Assembly: GCF_008704655.1 (NCBI RefSeq) | Contig: NZ_CP023688.1 | Coordinates: 7,446,501-7,510,500, forward strand | Source: Streptomyces rimosus | GTDB lineage: Bacteria; Actinomycetota; Actinomycetes; Streptomycetales; Streptomycetaceae | DNA: 64,000 nt | Direction: 5' to 3' | Shown: positions 8,292 to 16,372 of the stretch, in pieces | Numbering within the stretch: the stretch's first letter is position 1 | Layout of the letters: every line of letters starts with the position of its first letter | Position numbers and translations under genes: made by a program | The notes under the pieces: generated by a model | What the model was told of the DNA's origin: nothing | What the model saw: only the letters and a program-made list of their open reading frames with translations | The model's database searches: none

Positions 8292-9836
8292 CTACTCCGC
8301 CCCTGACGAAGTCCCGCCCCCGGGCGGGGCTTCGCCGTAGGTGCGCGTACCGCCGTCGCCCGTCGCGCCGGTGGCCCCGCCGTACGTGCCGCCGCCCCCG
8401 GACGCGGTCGGTTCGGTCGTCGGGGCGGACGAGGTGGGCGCGGTGGTCGTGGGCCACGACGTCGTCGGATGATGGGTGGTCGAGCGGGGCGGAGTGGTCT
8501 GCGGGTACGTACGGTGGGGAGGCGTGCTGCCGGGGTACGTACGCCCGGGAGCCGTACCGCCCGGTGAGGCGGTCGCGGACGCCGAGCTGCCGGGCGACGT
8601 CCGCCCCGGCGTGCCGCCGCCCCCGCCGCCCGTACCGCCGCCTCCGCCGTCGCCGGTGCCGCCTCCGGAACCACCGCCGCCCGAGGTGCTGCCCGGCGTG
8701 GGCCCCGGGGAACCGTCGTCCGCCAGCAGCGCGTACGCCACGCCGCCCGCCGCCAGCACCGCGATCAGCGCGCCGGCCAGCAGCAGCCGGACCGACCGCC
8801 GGCGCTTCCGCTCGGCCTCGGTCGTGGTGTCCGCGGCCGGTATCCCCGCGGTCGTCTCCGGGCCCGGCATCGGCGTCGGGGGACCGTACGCCGCAAGGGC
8901 CTGGTCGGCGGCGGCCGTCGGTGCGTGGGCGGGCGGCGGCACCACCACCGTGGGCGTGGCACCGCCGCCCGCCGCGACCGCGTCCAGCATCCGCTGCACC
9001 TCGGCCCCGTCCAGCCGCTCCCGCGGGTCCTTGCGCAGCAGCCCTTCCAGTACGGGGGTGAGCGGGCCCGCGTGGCGGGGCGGCGGCAGCTGCTCGTCGA
9101 CCACCGCGCGCAGCGTGGACAGCGGTGTGTCCTGGCGGAACGGCGAACGGCCCTCCACGGCCGCGTACAGCGTCACGCCCAGCGACCACAGGTCCGACTC
9201 CGGGCCCGCCTGCTGCCCGAGCGCCCGTTCCGGTGCCAGGAACTCGGGCGAGCCGACCAGTTCGCCCGTCAGCGTCAGGGCGGAGGAGCCCGCCACCCGC
9301 GCGATGCCGAAGTCGGTCAGCACCACCCGGCCGTCGTTGCCCAGCAGGACGTTGCCCGGCTTCACGTCGCGGTGCAGCACGCCCGCGGTGTGCGCGACCC
9401 GCAGCGCGGCCAGCACCTGGGAGCCGATGCCCGCGGCCCTGGCCGGCGTCAGCGGCCCGTCCGCGGCCAGCACCTCGGCCAGCGACAGGCCGCGCACCAG
9501 TTCCATGACGATCCACGGGCGGCCGTCCTCGGTCACCACGTCGTAGACGGTCACCACGTTGCGGTGCGCGATACGGGCCGCCGCCCGGCCCTCCCGCTCC
9601 AGGCGCGCGTACAGCAGGCCCTGTTCACCCTCGGTCAGTTCGCGGGGCGCCCGGACCTCCTTGACGGCGACCTCGCGGGCCAGCAGCTCGTCCCGGGCCC
9701 GCCACACCACGCCCATCCCGCCCCGGCCCAGCTCGGCGCCCAGCCGGTAGCGCCCCGCCAGCAGCCGTCCGCCGTCTCCGCCCTCCGCGCCGTCCGGCAG
9801 ACCGCCGGTTCCGTCGCCGCCAGGATCCCCGCTCAT
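8292..9836 (-). CDS. membrane serine/threonine protein kinase, 514 aa
   Basis: Hanks-type kinase: glycine loop LGRGGMGVVW (residues 37-46), ATP lysine Lys59 in VAVKEV, catalytic loop HRDVKPGNVLL with Asp157, DFG at 175-177, and APE-like APERALG. A basic juxtamembrane stretch (ERKRRRSVR) leads into one membrane helix at about 350-371. The outer part is a low-complexity Gly/Ser/Thr/Pro tail of about 140 residues, without PASTA repeats. ATG at 9836 has GAGGAGGG upstream; the longer upstream frame is a shadow of the next gene. Likely an envelope or stress sensor kinase. The extracellular tail looks like a wall-spanning linker rather than a folded sensor. Confidence 0.9.
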   Translation of the reverse strand: MSGDPGGDGTGGLPDGAEGGDGGRLLAGRYRLGAELGRGGMGVVWRARDELLAREVAVKEVRAPRELTEGEQGLLYARLEREGRAAARIAHRNVVTVYDVVTEDGRPWIVMELVRGLSLAEVLAADGPLTPARAAGIGSQVLAALRVAHTAGVLHRDVKPGNVLLGNDGRVVLTDFGIARVAGSSALTLTGELVGSPEFLAPERALGQQAGPESDLWSLGVTLYAAVEGRSPFRQDTPLSTLRAVVDEQLPPPRHAGPLTPVLEGLLRKDPRERLDGAEVQRMLDAVAAGGGATPTVVVPPPAHAPTAAADQALAAYGPPTPMPGPETTAGIPAADTTTEAERKRRRSVRLLLAGALIAVLAAGGVAYALLADDGSPGPTPGSTSGGGGSGGGTGDGGGGGTGGGGGGTPGRTSPGSSASATASPGGTAPGRTYPGSTPPHRTYPQTTPPRSTTHHPTTSWPTTTAPTSSAPTTEPTASGGGGTYGGATGATGDGGTRTYGEAPPGGGTSSGAE

Positions 9837-9880: not shown

Positions 9881-11407
9881 TCAACCCAGCGTGGTTGCCG
9901 CCCCCTTGAGCAGCAATCCGCAGCCGAGCAGGAGGACGACGGCGGCAGTGCCGACGGGCGCCAGCCGGTGCGCGGCCGACAGTAACCGCGCACCCGCCCC
10001 GCGCCCCTTGACCAGTTGCTCCCCGAGCCGCAGGGTCAGCCGGACGGCGAGCAGTCCGGCCGCGGCCAGCGTCCCGGCCAGCCCCGCGCCGTACGCGACG
10101 ACCAGCAGGAACCCGAACCACGCCTGGCCGAGCGCGGCGGCGCCGACCAGCACCACCACCGCGGAGGGACTGGGCACCAGCCCGCCGGCGAACCCGAGCA
10201 GGACGATGCCGCGCAGGCCGGGGCGGGTCGGGTGGTGAGGGTGGTGGTCGTGACCATGTTCGTGGTCATGGTCGTGGTCATGGCCGTGCGGGTGACTGTG
10301 GCCATGGCTGTGCCCGTGCCCGTGCCCGTTCCGGCGCATCCGTAGCGCCCGCCGCAGCAGCACCGCTCCCGCCCCCGCCACCAGTGCCCCGCTGGCCACG
10401 CCGAGCCAGGCCACCACCGAGGGCGCGGCGGCCGACCCCGCCGCGATCAGCGCCCCCAGCGCGAAGACGCCCAGGGTGTGCGTCACAGTCACCGACAGGC
10501 CCAGGGCCAGTACGTCCCGCCGCGAACTCCGGCCGCCCGCCGCCGCTGCAGCGGCCATCATCGTCTTGCCGTGGCCCGGCGCGAGGGCGTGCAGCGCTCC
10601 GAGCAGCAGCGCGGTGGCGAGTGCGAGCGCCGCGAAGGCGGGGGTCAGGTGGTGCCGGGCGACGAGCCCGGTCAGGGCCTGCGTCCAGCGGTCCGCGCCG
10701 CGGGGCAGGACGGACCCGGCGGGCGGGCGTTCGGCAGCATCGGAGAGCGCGGGGCCGCCCGGTACGGCGCGAACGGCCGCCGAGCGCCGGGCGGGCGGTG
10801 AGGCCAGTACGTCCCTGGGGTAGGTGGTCAGGCGTCGGGACACCGATTTTGTGGGGGCGTCGGACGCGGTGAGCCGGGTGCGGTCGCCCCGGGCGGTGAT
10901 CTCCCGCCAGCCGGGCGCGCCGTCGCCCTCCGCCGCGCGGAAGCGGAGGGCGGCCCGCCCGTCCGACGGCAGGCGCGCGGTCATCCGGCACTCCAGGCGC
11001 AGGGTCGGCAGTCCGGCCTGGCCGGGCCGGGTGGCCGCGGTGGCGCTCGCTGACCGCAGCCGTTCCCGTCGCCCGTCCACGGTCAGCCCGCTGCCGCGCG
11101 CGGCGGTGGCGCACCGCTCCCGGGCCCAGGCCGCCAGCTCGGCCCGGTCCGTGGTCCCGTCCCCGTTCCGGTCGATACGGTCCTTCTGCTGCGCGGCCGG
11201 GATCTCGGCGAGGTCTTCGACGTGGTCGACGCGCAGTTCGCCGGGCCGGACGGTCAGGCCGTCGTACTGGCTGACGGTGAAGTTGCCGAGCGGGTGCGCG
11301 TGCGCGGCGCCCGCGGGCGCGAGCAGTAGTAGTACGGCGGTGAGTGCGGTGACCAGGAGGGCGACGGTTCGCCTCCGTATCGACAGGACTCCCTTGAAGG
11401 TGTTCAC
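9881..11407 (-). CDS. NicO-family nickel/cobalt-type metal transporter with His-rich loop, 508 aa
   Basis: Begins with a signal peptide-like helix ending AAHAHPLGNFTVSQYDG. An extracytoplasmic domain of ~280 residues follows with an EF-hand-like loop DRNGDGTTDRAEL, then six or more membrane helices. Helix LGALHALAPGHGKTMMAA carries the HxxxxGHGK-type metal motif of the RcnA/NiCoT-related NicO family, and a later cytoplasmic loop is packed with alternating His/Gly/Asp. GTG at 11407 overlaps the TGA of the TPR gene (GTGA). A TTA leucine codon at 9983-9985 lies 34 codons before the end and makes full translation depend on the bldA tRNA in Streptomyces. Metal and direction are not decided by sequence; Ni or Co efflux or uptake are the family options. 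Confidence 0.85.
   Translation of the reverse strand: MNTFKGVLSIRRRTVALLVTALTAVLLLLAPAGAAHAHPLGNFTVSQYDGLTVRPGELRVDHVEDLAEIPAAQQKDRIDRNGDGTTDRAELAAWARERCATAARGSGLTVDGRRERLRSASATAATRPGQAGLPTLRLECRMTARLPSDGRAALRFRAAEGDGAPGWREITARGDRTRLTASDAPTKSVSRRLTTYPRDVLASPPARRSAAVRAVPGGPALSDAAERPPAGSVLPRGADRWTQALTGLVARHHLTPAFAALALATALLLGALHALAPGHGKTMMAAAAAAGGRSSRRDVLALGLSVTVTHTLGVFALGALIAAGSAAAPSVVAWLGVASGALVAGAGAVLLRRALRMRRNGHGHGHSHGHSHPHGHDHDHDHEHGHDHHPHHPTRPGLRGIVLLGFAGGLVPSPSAVVVLVGAAALGQAWFGFLLVVAYGAGLAGTLAAAGLLAVRLTLRLGEQLVKGRGAGARLLSAAHRLAPVGTAAVVLLLGCGLLLKGAATTLG
9983..9985 (-). promoter_or_regulatory. in-frame TTA codon (bldA-dependent translation)
   Basis: The reverse complement reads CGG TTA CTG in frame with the NicO gene (Arg-Leu-Leu). 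TTA codons are rare in Streptomyces and need the developmentally regulated bldA tRNA. I checked the other taa/tta triplets I could find within well-supported genes and none was in frame. Confidence 0.8.
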
Positions 11408-12756
11408 CGTCCGGCCTCCAGCGCGCTGAGCGCCGACCGGGCCGCGGCTGCCCCCGTGGGCGAGAAGCCGCGGTCCAGGCGCAGGGCGGCGGACAGGTCG
11501 CGGCGGGCGTCGGCGGTCCGGCCCAGCGCGCGCTCGATCGTGCCGCGGTGGTAGAGGAATGCCGCGTCGCGGAAGCCGGGTGCGGCGGCGCGCTCGGCGT
11601 ACGGCAGGGCCTCCCGGTCCTGGCCGGTGTGGTGCAGGGTCCAGGCCAGGGCGTCGGCCGTGTGCACGGTCTGGCGGCGGGACCACTCGGCGCGGGCCGC
11701 GCGCAGGGCGGCGCGCCGGTCGCCGTGGTCGGTCTCGATCAGTGCGGTGTCCAGATCCACGGCCACGCCGTTCGCGCGCGCCAGGTCTGCCCAGGCCCCG
11801 GCCAGGGCGTATTGCCGCCGGGCGGCGGCCCGTTCGCCGCGCGCTTCGTAGACCTCGCCGAGCGCGGCCAGGGGCCCCGGCAGCGGGTAGCGGCGCACGA
11901 CCTCGCGCAGTTCACGGGCCGCCGTACCCAGTTCGCCGCGCGCGGCGTAAGCGCGCGCCCGGCCTTCCAGAGCCGGGAGGTGGCCTGGTGCGGCACGCAG
12001 CGCCAGCGCGTAGTACCGGAACGCGGTCGCGTACTGCCCGTGGCTGCGCGCCAGTTGGCCAAGCGCCGTGGCGACGTACGCGATGTCATCGGGCCGGGCG
12101 GCGGACTGCAGGGCGACCTCCAGCGCCTTGCGGGCACCGTCGGCGTCGCCGAGCAGTTCCCGTACGTACGCGAGCCGGGTGAAGGACGGAATGCCGGGGT
12201 GCACCGCGTCGGCGTGCCGCGCCGCCGCCAGCGCCTCGGCGTAGCGCCCGAGCTCCACCAGCGCGTCCACGCGGACCGCCAGCGCCCGTTCCCCGTACGG
12301 ATTGACCGCGAGCGCGGCATCCGCGTCCCGCAGCGCGGCCCGGAAGTCGTGCCGCGCCGCGGCGAGCGCGGCCCGCGCGGCGAGCCCGGCGTCGTTCTGG
12401 CGCGGGCGCAGCGCCAGCGAGCGGGCGACGGCGCGCCCGGCCTGCGGGTAGCGGGTCGGGTCGCCGGTCGTACGGGCCTGCTCGACGTAGGCGGCGCCGA
12501 GCCGCGCCCAGCCGAGCCAGTCCCCGGGCTGCGCGCGCAACCGGACCTGGAGGGCACTCACCGTGCCGGACAGGCCGGCCGCGGCGCCGCGGCCCACGGG
12601 GATGTCGGACGACGGTGGCGCGGGCACCGGGGCGCGCGCCCGGCCACCGTCTCCGCCCAGGGCGATCCCGCCGGCGGTGACCGCGCACGCGAGGAGCACG
12701 GTCACGACGGCGCCGGCGAGCTTGCCGCGTACGCTCCTGGGCAGTCGGAAGAACAT
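11404..12756 (-). CDS. TPR-repeat protein with N-terminal membrane anchor, 450 aa
   Basis: An N-terminal helix (KLAGAVVTVLLACAVTAGGIAL) acts as signal or anchor. About ten degenerate tetratricopeptide units follow, for example WLGWARLGAAYVEQAR, AALRDADAALAVNPYGERAL and FRYYALALRAAPGHLPAL. TPR arrays are protein-interaction scaffolds; here the scaffold would face the outside or be tethered to the membrane. The ATG at 12756 overlaps the stop of the DUF4331 gene (TGATG), and its end overlaps the NicO start. It is therefore the middle gene of a three-gene operon and probably bridges the DUF4331 protein and the transporter. The TPR call is firm; the role is inferred from context. Confidence 0.85.
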   Translation of the reverse strand: MFFRLPRSVRGKLAGAVVTVLLACAVTAGGIALGGDGGRARAPVPAPPSSDIPVGRGAAAGLSGTVSALQVRLRAQPGDWLGWARLGAAYVEQARTTGDPTRYPQAGRAVARSLALRPRQNDAGLAARAALAAARHDFRAALRDADAALAVNPYGERALAVRVDALVELGRYAEALAAARHADAVHPGIPSFTRLAYVRELLGDADGARKALEVALQSAARPDDIAYVATALGQLARSHGQYATAFRYYALALRAAPGHLPALEGRARAYAARGELGTAARELREVVRRYPLPGPLAALGEVYEARGERAAARRQYALAGAWADLARANGVAVDLDTALIETDHGDRRAALRAARAEWSRRQTVHTADALAWTLHHTGQDREALPYAERAAAPGFRDAAFLYHRGTIERALGRTADARRDLSAALRLDRGFSPTGAAAARSALSALEAGR

Positions 12757-14351
12757 CAACGGCCGGCCTTCGCACGGCGGTTGGACCGCAGCCAGAGCAG
12801 CCCGGTGCCGACCAGCACCAGCCCGAAGGCGCCCGCCGAGGCGGAGGCGATCAGCAGGGTGTCGCTGCCGTCACCGGTCGCGCTGTCCTGCGGACGCAGC
12901 CCGGTCCGCAGACCGGCCGATTGGTTCACCGCGCCCTGGCCGCTCCCGCCCGTGCTGTCGCCGCCGCCCTTCTTGGCGACCGGGCCCCGGGAGCCCGAGG
13001 CGGGCAGCGCCAGATACGGGAAGGTCTTGCCGAACGGCTGGTCGTTGGCGTCGACCGCGTCGCCCAGGTCGTTCTTCTGCCCGACCAGCTCGCCCTGCAC
13101 CACCTGGAGGGAGATGTCCACGACGTCGTCGGTGAGCCGCCGGCCGTTCGGGTAGCCCGCGTTGTCGCCGTCCAGGACGCCCAGGCGCTTGGGCTGCGCG
13201 GTGGGCGGGATGGCGGTGTTCAGCCGCAGCGCTTCCGCGGGGCGCACGTTCGGCGGCTGGTTGAGCTTGGCCACCCCGGTCAGGAACACCGCGATCAGGT
13301 CCTTGCGGGGCAGCGCCGGCGCCTTGATCCCGTAGATCTTCTCGATCAGCCGGGCCAGCTCGGGGTCGGTGACGTACTTGAGGAACTGCGCGTCGTTCCA
13401 CGGCGCGGACGCGTTGAAGCGGTCCTTGTCCTTGACCGGCACGACCAGCTCGTTGACCAGCGGGTTGCCCAGCCGCGACACCTGGGACCAGCCGCCGGAG
13501 GCGTTCTTGCGCTGGGTGGTGGACCAGACGCCGATCACCGGCTGCTGCGCCGACTGCCGCAGCTCCTTCGTCGGCACCTGGAGGGCCACCGACTGCACGT
13601 TGTAGCCCTTGAGGGTGTCCCGGCCGACCTCGGAGAGGTCGCCGCCGTACAGCAGGTCGAAGGCGCGCAGGTCCAGGAAGAACGGGTCGTCCGCCTGGCC
13701 CGCGAAGGTCGAGCCGCCGCCCGCGACCGGCCGTACCGCCTGGTCGCGCAGCTTCTGGTAGTCGGGCATCGACGCCTTGCCGACGTTGGACGGCGCGGCG
13801 GTCAGATCATCGGCGATCTTCGTGCTGGAGACCACCTTCTGGTCCTTCAGCCGCAGCAGGTCGATGTCGTACGTCTGGTAGTAGTTCAGGTCCTTGTCGT
13901 CGAGGGACGTGACCTGGCCGGTGTTGTAGAGGAACGTGTCGCCGCTGCGGTAGTTGTCCTTGAACGTCCACCGGTAGACCAGATCGCCCTGGCCGTCCCC
14001 GTCGCTGTCCACGTGCACGTCGTACTGGGCGTCGGTGGCGAACTTGTAGAAGTTCGGGCCGCCCGCCGGCTCGGCGAAGGGCCACCAGTTCACCGTCAGC
14101 GTCGTGGTGTCCGGCTTGTCGGGGCTCTGGAAGGCGTAGACGTCCGTGGTGTCGTACTCCGGCTGCCCGGAGATCTGCGGCGCCTCCCGGTGGCTGGACG
14201 CCTGCGCCGGGCGGGCCGCGAGCGGGCCCGCGGCCGCGCCGGCGACGCCCGCCGCGGCCAGCGAGCCGCACGCCAGCACGGCGACGGTCCGGCGGCTGCC
14301 CCTGCCCTTCCTGGTCTTCCGGTTCTCGGTGGGTTCGGTGCTGGCGGTCAT
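12756..14351 (-). CDS. DUF4331 secreted surface protein, 531 aa
   Basis: The family signature SSHREAPQISGQPEYDTTDVYAF-like region (SSHREAP, DTTDVYAFQSP) follows a signal peptide with a basic N-terminus (KTRKGRGSRR). The body contains Asp-rich DSDGDGQGD and the conserved WSTTQRK region. The C-terminus has a sorting-signal layout: DSATGDGSD, a hydrophobic helix of ~22 residues, then RSNRRAKAGR. This looks like a sortase or simple membrane anchor, although the motif is not a clean LAxTG. ATG at 14351 has GAAGGAC upstream. It heads the operon with the TPR and NicO genes and lies downstream of a SigK-type promoter. DUF4331 has no established biochemical function that I know of. Confidence 0.88.
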   Translation of the reverse strand: MTASTEPTENRKTRKGRGSRRTVAVLACGSLAAAGVAGAAAGPLAARPAQASSHREAPQISGQPEYDTTDVYAFQSPDKPDTTTLTVNWWPFAEPAGGPNFYKFATDAQYDVHVDSDGDGQGDLVYRWTFKDNYRSGDTFLYNTGQVTSLDDKDLNYYQTYDIDLLRLKDQKVVSSTKIADDLTAAPSNVGKASMPDYQKLRDQAVRPVAGGGSTFAGQADDPFFLDLRAFDLLYGGDLSEVGRDTLKGYNVQSVALQVPTKELRQSAQQPVIGVWSTTQRKNASGGWSQVSRLGNPLVNELVVPVKDKDRFNASAPWNDAQFLKYVTDPELARLIEKIYGIKAPALPRKDLIAVFLTGVAKLNQPPNVRPAEALRLNTAIPPTAQPKRLGVLDGDNAGYPNGRRLTDDVVDISLQVVQGELVGQKNDLGDAVDANDQPFGKTFPYLALPASGSRGPVAKKGGGDSTGGSGQGAVNQSAGLRTGLRPQDSATGDGSDTLLIASASAGAFGLVLVGTGLLWLRSNRRAKAGR

Positions 14352-14428: not shown

Positions 14429-14456
14429 TATTCGTGGCCCCGTTCCGTACGGATGG
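14429..14456 (-). promoter_or_regulatory. SigK/ECF19-type promoter of the DUF4331 operon
   Basis: On the minus strand CCATCC (14456-14451) and CGAATA (14434-14429) are separated by 16 bases, about 78 bases before the DUF4331 ATG. The M. tuberculosis SigK consensus is remembered as CCATCC with a CCGAAT -10 and 16-17 bp spacing, so the -35 is exact, the -10 is close, and the spacing may be one short depending on alignment. The adjacent divergent gene encodes an ECF factor of that type. Confidence 0.65.
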
Positions 14457-14568
14457 GTGCCGCGTCCGCGGAAACCGGGCGCCTGCCGGACCGGTCCGCC
14501 GCGCGTCTCGCCCCGAACCCACCACGGCGGGACAATGACCGGTCGTCACGGGAACGGGGTGAGGGCGC

Positions 14569-15135
14569 GTGAAGTCCGAAACGGCCGCCGGGCGCGGTGC
14601 CGAGGTGCTGCTGCCGCTGGTCGCGCGCGGCGACCACGGCGCCTTCGAGGAGCTGTACGACCTGGTGTCGGCGCCGGTCTTCGGCATGGCCCGGCGGGTG
14701 CTGCGGGACAGCGCGCAGGCCGAGGAGGTGACACAAGAGGTGCTGCTGGAGATCTGGCGGCGGGCCCACCGGTACGACCCCGGGCGCGGCAGCGGCCTGT
14801 CGTGGATCCTCACCCTCGCCCACCGCAGGGCGGTGGACCGGGTGCGCTCGGCGCGGGCCGCGAGCGAGCGCGAGGAGCGGGCCGCGCGCCGGTCCGTGGT
14901 GACCGCCTTCGACGAGGTGGCCGAGCAGGTCGAGGGGGCCTTCGAACGCGAGTGGGTGCGCCGGTGCCTGGAACGGCTCACCTCTCTGCAGCGCCAGTCG
15001 GTCACCCTCGCGTACTACGACGGCTACACCCACCGCGAGGTGGCCCGTCGGCTGGCCGTACCGCTCGGCACGGTCAAGTCCCGGCTGCGCGACGGGCTGG
15101 CCCGGCTGCGCGACTGCCTGGCGGCCGCCGGATGA
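14569..15135 (+). CDS. sigK: ECF RNA polymerase sigma factor, SigK-like, 188 aa
   Basis: Region 2 (GAFEELYDLVSAPVFGMARR, then SAQAEEVTQEVLLEIWRRA) and region 4 (LTSLQRQSVTLAYYDGYTH followed by HREVARRLAVPLGTVKSRL) are in normal ECF order. The YDGYTHREVA wording is typical of the SigK/ECF19 group. The GTG start at 14569 has GAGGG upstream. The gene overlaps the anti-sigma gene by ATGA, so the pair is made in balance. It faces the DUF4331-TPR-NicO operon, whose promoter carries a SigK-like site; the simplest reading is that the sigma factor drives that operon. I found no copy of the same promoter in front of the sigma gene itself, so autoregulation is not evident. Confidence 0.88.
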   Translation: MKSETAAGRGAEVLLPLVARGDHGAFEELYDLVSAPVFGMARRVLRDSAQAEEVTQEVLLEIWRRAHRYDPGRGSGLSWILTLAHRRAVDRVRSARAASEREERAARRSVVTAFDEVAEQVEGAFEREWVRRCLERLTSLQRQSVTLAYYDGYTHREVARRLAVPLGTVKSRLRDGLARLRDCLAAAG

Positions 15136-15974
15136 GCCGCCGCCCGCCGCCCGCGGCCCTCCGTGACGCGCTGCGCGCCGGACGGCGGGGCGCCCACACC
15201 CTGGCCGCCCCGTACGCCCTCGACGCCCTCGGCCCGCGCGAACGCTGCCGCTTCGAACGGCACTTGCGCCGCTGCCCGGACTGCGCGGCCCAGCTCCGCG
15301 TCCTGTCCGAGGACGCCACCTGGCTGGCCCGCGCCGCCGCCCGCCCCGCCCCCGCCGGTCTGCGCGCCCGCGTACTGACCGCCGCGCTGGCCACCCCGCA
15401 GGAGGCCGTGGTCCCGCGGCCCGCCGAGCCGGTGCCCGCACCCGGGGACCCGCGTCCCGCCCGCGCGCGGGGCCCGCGGCTGTCCGCCCGGTACGGCACC
15501 CGCCTCGCCGGGGCGGTCGCCGCATTGAGCCTGCTCGTCAGCGCCCTGCTCGCCTTCCAGCTGATCCGTACGGACAGTGAACTGGACCGGCAGCGCGCCG
15601 TGACGCGGTCCGTGAACGCGGTGCTGGCCGCGCCGGACGCGCTGGCCGTCTCCGGCCGTCCGATCGGCGGGCGGTCGCTGAGCGCGGTCGAATCGGCCGA
15701 GATGGACCAGGCCGTGGTGAACGCCGCCGGATTGCCCCTGCCGCCCGCCGGGCACGCGTACCAGTTGTGGCGCATGCGCGACGGGCTCCCGACGGCCCGC
15801 TCGGCCGGTGTGCTGTCGTACGACCCGCGGACCCGCACCGCGGGCCCCGCCGTCGTACGTGATCTTCGGCACGGCGGCAGCGGCCCCGCGGACCGGCTCG
15901 CGGTCACCCTGGAGCCGGCCGGCGGCTCCGTCAGGCCCACGACCTCGGTACTCATCCAACTCGCCCTCGGCTGA
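15132..15974 (+). CDS. RskA-type transmembrane anti-sigma factor, 280 aa
   Basis: The N-terminal cytoplasmic domain has a zinc-binding anti-sigma signature (RFERHLRRCPDCAAQL, an HxxxCxxC arrangement). One membrane helix follows (AGAVAALSLLVSALLAF near residue 135). The outer domain matches anti-sigma-K C-terminal domains (GHAYQLWRMRDGLPTARSAG and VTLEPAGGSVRPT). In the family, regulated proteolysis of the membrane protein frees the sigma factor. Its ATG overlaps the sigma stop (ATGA), the standard arrangement for ECF pairs. The signal is unknown; an envelope redox or metal cue would fit the divergent operon, but that is inference. Confidence 0.88.
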   Translation: MSRRPPPAALRDALRAGRRGAHTLAAPYALDALGPRERCRFERHLRRCPDCAAQLRVLSEDATWLARAAARPAPAGLRARVLTAALATPQEAVVPRPAEPVPAPGDPRPARARGPRLSARYGTRLAGAVAALSLLVSALLAFQLIRTDSELDRQRAVTRSVNAVLAAPDALAVSGRPIGGRSLSAVESAEMDQAVVNAAGLPLPPAGHAYQLWRMRDGLPTARSAGVLSYDPRTRTAGPAVVRDLRHGGSGPADRLAVTLEPAGGSVRPTTSVLIQLALG

Positions 15975-16108
15975 CAGTGATCCACAAGGTGCCGTCAACG
16001 TCGGTGCGCGGGAGGTGAATCCTGGTGACCGGGCCGCGCGCGTGCCACGGGAGAGAGATAGGGTTACCCTGCCCGGGGCCGGGTGCCCTCGTACGGGTGG
16101 GGAGTGTC

Positions 16109-16372
16109 ATGGAACAGATAACAATGCGCAGCAGGCCACGAGTGCCTGCGATCAGTTGCGGAAGCGGCGCGTCCAGCGCGCGGCTCGACCGTCATCTCGC
16201 GGTGCTGGGCGGACCCGCCGTCCCGCAGCGCGAGTCGGAGGGTGCGACGTCGTTGATGCAGGAGCTCACCGCTCGTGACCACGCGCGCACGAGGACGAGC
16301 CGCGGCGCCAGGGTGTCGCTGTTCGCCCCGCTGCGCAGGCTGCGCCGGTCGCTGTTCGGCAGTCACAGCTGA
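16109..16372 (+). CDS. small conserved-looking protein, 87 aa
   Basis: ATG at 16109 follows GGGGAG at good spacing. The product is basic, begins MEQITMRSRPRVPAISC and ends LRRLRRSLFGSHS. The middle contains SSARLDRHLAVLGGPAVP and a stretch with ATSLMQELTARDHARTRT. No signal peptide or membrane helix is seen. I believe similar small proteins occur in other Streptomyces, but cannot name a family or function. An in-frame longer version from 16025 lacks a ribosome site. It sits between the anti-sigma gene and a convergent CoA-transferase, so co-transcription with the sigma pair is possible though 134 bases separate them. Confidence 0.6.
   Translation: MEQITMRSRPRVPAISCGSGASSARLDRHLAVLGGPAVPQRESEGATSLMQELTARDHARTRTSRGARVSLFAPLRRLRRSLFGSHS

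Follow-up and report, generated by a model that had tools for sequence, protein, structure and literature searches.

A SigK-type promoter element lies between two divergent gene sets in the window, which is the whole 64,000-nucleotide stretch of Streptomyces rimosus DNA that was analysed. Judged by comparison with related genomes, this element is very probably the promoter of a DUF4331-TPR-NicO operon and would be read by the SigK-family ECF sigma factor that is encoded on the facing side. The element and the genes of the locus are as follows.

14429..14456, minus strand: candidate SigK-type promoter element, CCATCCGTACGGAACGGGGCCACGAATA (CCATCC-N16-CGAATA), with the -35 box CCATCC at 14456-14451, a spacer of exactly 16 and the -10 box CGAATA at 14434-14429
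12756..14351, minus strand: DUF4331 gene, 531 aa (Pfam PF14224, 530 bits)
11404..12759, minus strand: TPR-repeat gene, starting at TTG 12759 or ATG 12756
9881..11407, minus strand: NicO-family transporter gene with a His-rich loop (Pfam PF03824, 29.7 bits, cut-off 27.7)
8292..9836, minus strand: Ser/Thr protein kinase gene (Pfam Pkinase, 162.9 bits), 44 bp after the NicO gene
14569..15135, plus strand: ECF sigma gene of the SigK family (NCBIfam NF007228), with Cys133 and Cys183
15132..15974, plus strand: RskA-type anti-sigma gene, with RskA_N, RskA_C (78.5 bits) and a zf-HC2 domain carrying HLRRCPDC

As originally predicted, CCATCC-N16-CGAATA precedes the DUF4331 gene, ending 77 bp before its ATG (14351), and the spacer, for which an error of one base had been allowed, is exactly the 16 bases given. 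The SigK promoter consensus is of the type CCATCC-N16/17-CGAATA, and recognition by the window sigma is predicted from it. In dinucleotide shuffles of the window, 0.02 elements are expected per window, and 2 of 100 shuffles held one. In all 9.36 Mb of the genome, a search for the exact pattern with spacers of 15-18 gives 2 matches versus 2 for the reversed control, and a degenerate form has 9 versus 4. As the exact pattern does not exceed its control, the string is weak evidence by itself; the case is carried by its position and by its conservation before DUF4331 in relatives.

This conservation was followed in 151 DUF4331 loci, consisting of 141 full-scoring and 3 low-scoring matches from 295 genomes of the genus and 7 from further genomes. 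The low-scoring loci are 3 of the 9 matches below 500 bits among those listed, from which all sampling was done, and some genomes may be present in more than one set, L003 and L092 being nearly identical. A divergent sigma gene adjoins DUF4331 in 123 loci, and the other 28 (non-adjacent loci) have no sigma gene beside it. Two patterns were used: a strict form, C[CA]ATCC-N16-CGAAT, set after 37 loci had been seen (30 of them sigma-adjacent, all 30 strict), and a loose form, C[CA]A[TAG]CC-N16/17-CG[AT]A[TC], set after all loci had been seen. Alignment of the promoter region across Streptomyces had been proposed as a way to refute the element, and both boxes proved to be conserved, with the strict form before DUF4331 in 94 and the loose form in 119 of the 123 sigma-adjacent loci. 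Of the 93 sigma-adjacent loci added once the strict pattern had been set, 64 carry it, and the later loci without it mostly show CAATCC-N17-CGTAT. In part of the genus (e.g. L148, L177 and L210), the -10 box has changed from CGAAT to CGTAT and the spacer is 17 long. Loci from beyond the species group of the window mostly have CAATCC instead of CCATCC as the -35 box, and their last -10 base is variable.

Shuffles of the same regions gave 0 strict and 11 loose matches in 2460, the reversed pattern gave 0 in 123, and first-order resamples gave 3 strict and 32 loose matches in 6150. Random windows of the same loci, some of which hold true elements, gave 37 strict and 56 loose matches in 2460. The opposite strand of the same regions matched in 34 (strict) and 37 (loose) of 123 cases, which led to the search for elements facing the sigma gene. 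The 28 non-adjacent DUF4331 loci hold 8 strict and 17 loose elements, so that the element is more frequent in sigma-adjacent loci (Fisher 3e-6 for the strict and 1e-6 for the loose form, uncorrected for phylogeny); related genomes in all these counts are not independent. About nine non-adjacent DUF4331-TPR-NicO loci, including L167, L174, L189, L193, L196, L206, L217 and L222, have in common an upstream block of an entirely different kind, conserved around GCACGTACTGGACGTACAAGC, which may be the site of another regulator.

In a scan that did not start from the motif, 64 dereplicated relatives were searched, with at most two mismatches, for all hexamer pairs 16 apart in the window's intergenic region. 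The most recurrent was the CCATCC/CGAATA pair (45/64), versus 2 for the median pair and 37 for the best unrelated pair. With three other species as reference, a sigma-facing pair, TACGGA/GCGGGT, ranked first (54-55 of 66-67). In 40 loci with unlike spacers, where the box letters are fixed by selection of the loci and hence uninformative, the letters flanking the boxes are conserved as well: C at -1 (38/40), A at -2 (35/40), C at +19 (37/40) and C at +29 (39/40). The element can be aligned across the window's clade. The same clade also conserves two further blocks in the stretch from the element to the sigma gene (14460-14560), including GGACCGGTCC and TGACGACCGGTCATT.

The facing genes were predicted to encode a SigK-like ECF sigma factor and an RskA-type anti-sigma factor, and both identities are borne out by the domain models. 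The window sigma scores 275.7 bits against NCBIfam NF007228 'SigK' (cut-off 226), its ECF19 assignment being one of kinship, through the SigK model rather than an ECF19 model, and its neighbour matches RskA_C at 78.5 bits. The anti-sigma start overlaps the sigma stop by four bases (ATGA). The best solved relative of the sigma is M. tuberculosis SigK (4nqw), with both cysteines aligned. The window sigma has Cys133 and Cys183, and so does the sigma of each of the 123 sigma-adjacent loci (124 rows including the query); both also occur in 73/73 SigKs without DUF4331 and in 6/6 sigmas from genomes lacking DUF4331. Both cysteines are described as needed for the activity of M. tuberculosis SigK (PMC7509140). 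In a tree of 106 rows, the DUF4331-linked sigmas and the six from DUF4331-less genomes form one clade (100/99, with the bootstrap not settled) that sits beside other Streptomycetaceae SigKs. The 115-codon ORF after rskA (window 16025-16372) is matched by neither Pfam nor NCBIfam; one like it lies near the L234 sigma gene.

The gene order behind the element is constant where it can be tested. In sigma-adjacent loci, TPR follows DUF4331 in 96/96 and NicO follows in 85/85 testable cases, which, together with the strict element in 94/123 loci, supports the predicted link from the sigma factor to DUF4331-TPR-NicO. In the window, the DUF4331 stop TGA (12758-12756) overlaps the TPR ATG at 12756, and the NicO start GTG (11407) overlaps the TPR stop (GTGA). 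The kinase gene occurs in the same place and on the same strand in 83/85 testable sigma-adjacent loci, versus 2/20 non-adjacent loci, and is possibly a fourth operon member.

Regarding the products, the DUF4331 protein has a signal-like N-terminal stretch and a C-terminal helix (505-527), which is a putative membrane anchor. Its structure model (pLDDT 73.8, pTM 0.73) gave no specific match in a structure comparison, and a literature search returned no function for DUF4331 and no text match to the family name. The Pfam NicO match covers residues 264-388 only, and the NCBIfam RcnA-like model gives the NicO protein 90 bits, under its cut-off of 195. The roles that had been proposed for the three proteins, 'surface', 'scaffold' and 'metal transporter', are putative and drawn from family membership and sequence features. 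The apparent export of the DUF4331 and TPR proteins and the His-rich loop of NicO suggest that the output is an envelope response involving metal traffic.

These features can be combined into a working model. By analogy with M. tuberculosis, RskA at the membrane would hold the sigma factor until an outside signal releases or re-sets it, and the two conserved cysteines may add redox control of the sigma factor. The holoenzyme would then transcribe the genes for the membrane-bound DUF4331 protein, the exported TPR protein and the NicO-type transporter, which would be made by coupled translation. In relatives, the freed sigma factor would also transcribe its own gene and a zf-HC2 gene.

Self-activation is likely in many relatives, since the strict element also faces the sigma gene in 51 of the 123 sigma-adjacent loci; the window gives no sign of it. 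In 72/123 of these loci, the sigma gene is also faced by another conserved block, ACCCGCGTTTTC...GATCCGTAAC, some 30 bp upstream of the SigK-type element on that side. Neither this block nor a sigma-facing element was found in the window's clade. In addition, four solo DUF4331 paralogues (L133, L137, L159 and L172), with no sigma, TPR or NicO gene in about 12 kb, carry the element, which points to action at a distance.

The zf-HC2 gene was reached through the pattern RACCAATCC-N16-CGAATV, which has matches in 161/295 genomes of the genus; its reversed control yielded none among the matches listed. The window genome has no match to this pattern, its own element reading CCATCC. Among 20 stretches chosen from the site list, 17 lead to a zf-HC2 protein of 216-224 residues. 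In a test without site selection, the zf-HC2 gene was sought in 30 genomes with an adjacent sigma and was found at E 1e-60 or better in 28. In those 28, the loose element (28/28) and mostly also the strict one (24/28) lies about 130-143 bp before the gene. At all 52 loci (L318-L333, L337, L339-L345 and L369-L396), the zf-HC2 gene is preceded on the same strand by a second ECF sigma gene and by an ORF of 171 residues. This second sigma scores 240.6 bits against NCBIfam PRK09645 (cut-off 202), which is presumably the SigL subfamily. The zf-HC2 protein resembles anti-sigma factors at 44.5 bits, under the NCBIfam cut-off of 100, and its domain and place suggest that it is the anti-sigma of the second ECF sigma.

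Six genomes (L232-L237) keep the sigma and anti-sigma genes and have no DUF4331 match. Five of these have the kinase gene immediately across from the sigma gene and no longer carry the element at that place, the pattern that a loss of DUF4331-TPR-NicO would leave. The element is found before zf-HC2 in these six genomes, with CGAACA in five and CGAAGG (outside the loose form) in one, and its presence there would explain why the sigma factor has been kept. Weaker zf-HC2 homologues from genomes without this sigma branch carry the element in 0/9 cases (9 of 23 weaker matches inspected). A counter-example is G130, a 780-contig assembly that has the zf-HC2 gene with the element and no SigK match at 1e-40. 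The only zf-HC2 homologue of the window genome (46%), directly behind its own ECF sigma, has no element.

The original prediction of one regulated unit is supported by the gene order but is too narrow for the relatives, where sigma-facing copies of the element occur, as do copies before the solo paralogues and the unlinked anti-sigma-like gene. A broader proposal, which in our estimate may equally well be right or wrong, is a two-arm switch in which this SigK sub-lineage would turn on the DUF4331-TPR-NicO envelope/metal operon beside it and, in most relatives, simultaneously the gene for the presumed anti-sigma of the second, unlinked ECF sigma. One envelope response would thereby silence another; the window species shows only the first arm.

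Other explanations of the element have also been considered. It could be a real SigK-type promoter that is read by an unlinked, fasciclin-type SigK paralogue, alone or with the facing sigma. Near-identical elements are indeed present in SigK loci without DUF4331, so that the identity of the SigK that reads the element cannot be told from its sequence. Of 21 full-scoring DUF4331 loci that are neither sigma-adjacent nor solo, 13 also have the loose element, in six cases of the GACCAATCC type, and in those 13 any SigK found is elsewhere in the genome. This reading is nevertheless unlikely: the window's genome has no SigK-like gene besides the facing sigma (391.5 bits, versus 70.5 for the next ECF), and the element is commoner in sigma-adjacent than in non-adjacent loci.

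Control by a housekeeping or other sigma factor, or by a repressor, with a partly fortuitous likeness in the window, would fit the exact-string count, which does not exceed its control, and the nine or so loci with a different upstream block. We consider it quite improbable, given that the fixed spacing is conserved across relatives despite a variable spacer sequence and that the element recurs at unlinked genes. Least probable is conservation of the block for a reason other than promoter function, such as a regulator's operator or an RNA structure. The window copy does hold a 10-bp palindrome (TCCGTACGGA) in the -35/spacer region, and there are two more conserved blocks on the side of the sigma gene, but the palindrome is not kept in the spacers of relatives, and two boxes at a fixed distance, in the correct orientation and before several different genes, fit an ECF promoter. 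Recognition by the facing SigK-family sigma is the preferred reading.

The SigK-RskA module and its promoter are already known. The window system resembles the M. tuberculosis one (ECF19; mpt83-sigK-rskA) in sigma family, in its adjacent RskA-type anti-sigma and in Cys 133/183, and the promoter type is alike by consensus. It differs in its targets, which here would be DUF4331-TPR-NicO, the mpt83-type fasciclin gene not being part of the window cassette. Also, the window anti-sigma has the zinc-ligand motif HLRRCPDC, whereas M. tuberculosis RskA is reported not to rely on such a motif (PMC7406223). With the AS19-1 anti-sigma group (class I anti-sigma domain), it shares 10 of 12 positions by eye in helix 1 (HTLAGAYALDAL versus HTLAAPYALDAL in the window), and it differs in that its target sigma belongs to the DUF4331-linked branch. 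The Streptomyces SigK/fasciclin/molybdo-oxidoreductase loci have near-identical elements (e.g. L022, L042 and L027), both cysteines (73/73) and an RskA partner, but occupy a separate branch of the sigma tree and have other neighbours.

Outputs other than the mycobacterial MPT70/83 proteins had been expected. This holds for the DUF4331 operon, as a fasciclin was matched in only 1/151 DUF4331 stretches (up to 12.5 kb) and in none of the window genes scanned with Pfam, but not for Streptomyces as a whole, as its separate SigK loci without DUF4331 include a fasciclin in 21/73. We read these patterns as a SigK sub-lineage that may have exchanged fasciclins for DUF4331-TPR-NicO as its targets and, in most relatives, may also have acquired the presumed inhibitor of a second sigma as a target. 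A literature search found no link of SigK-RskA to DUF4331-TPR-NicO or to such a presumed anti-sigma. One study reports that SigK sites are conserved among Actinobacteria and that the signal of the mycobacterial module is still unknown (PMC7509140). With a SigK-RskA module that appears to serve other outputs outside mycobacteria, this signal could be sought in genera that are harmless and used in the laboratory. The DUF4331 family gains a candidate regulator, fixed partner genes and a testable promoter, and the unlinked site before the anti-sigma-like gene, if true, would connect two ECF sigmas directly at the level of transcription, the one restraining the other.

Stretches from distant Actinomycetota (L278-L317) contain an ECF sigma gene in 11/40 cases, at differing positions, and the nine tested are all without the SigK cysteines. 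In the same stretches, TPR lies downstream of DUF4331 in 29/40 and NicO in 19/40.
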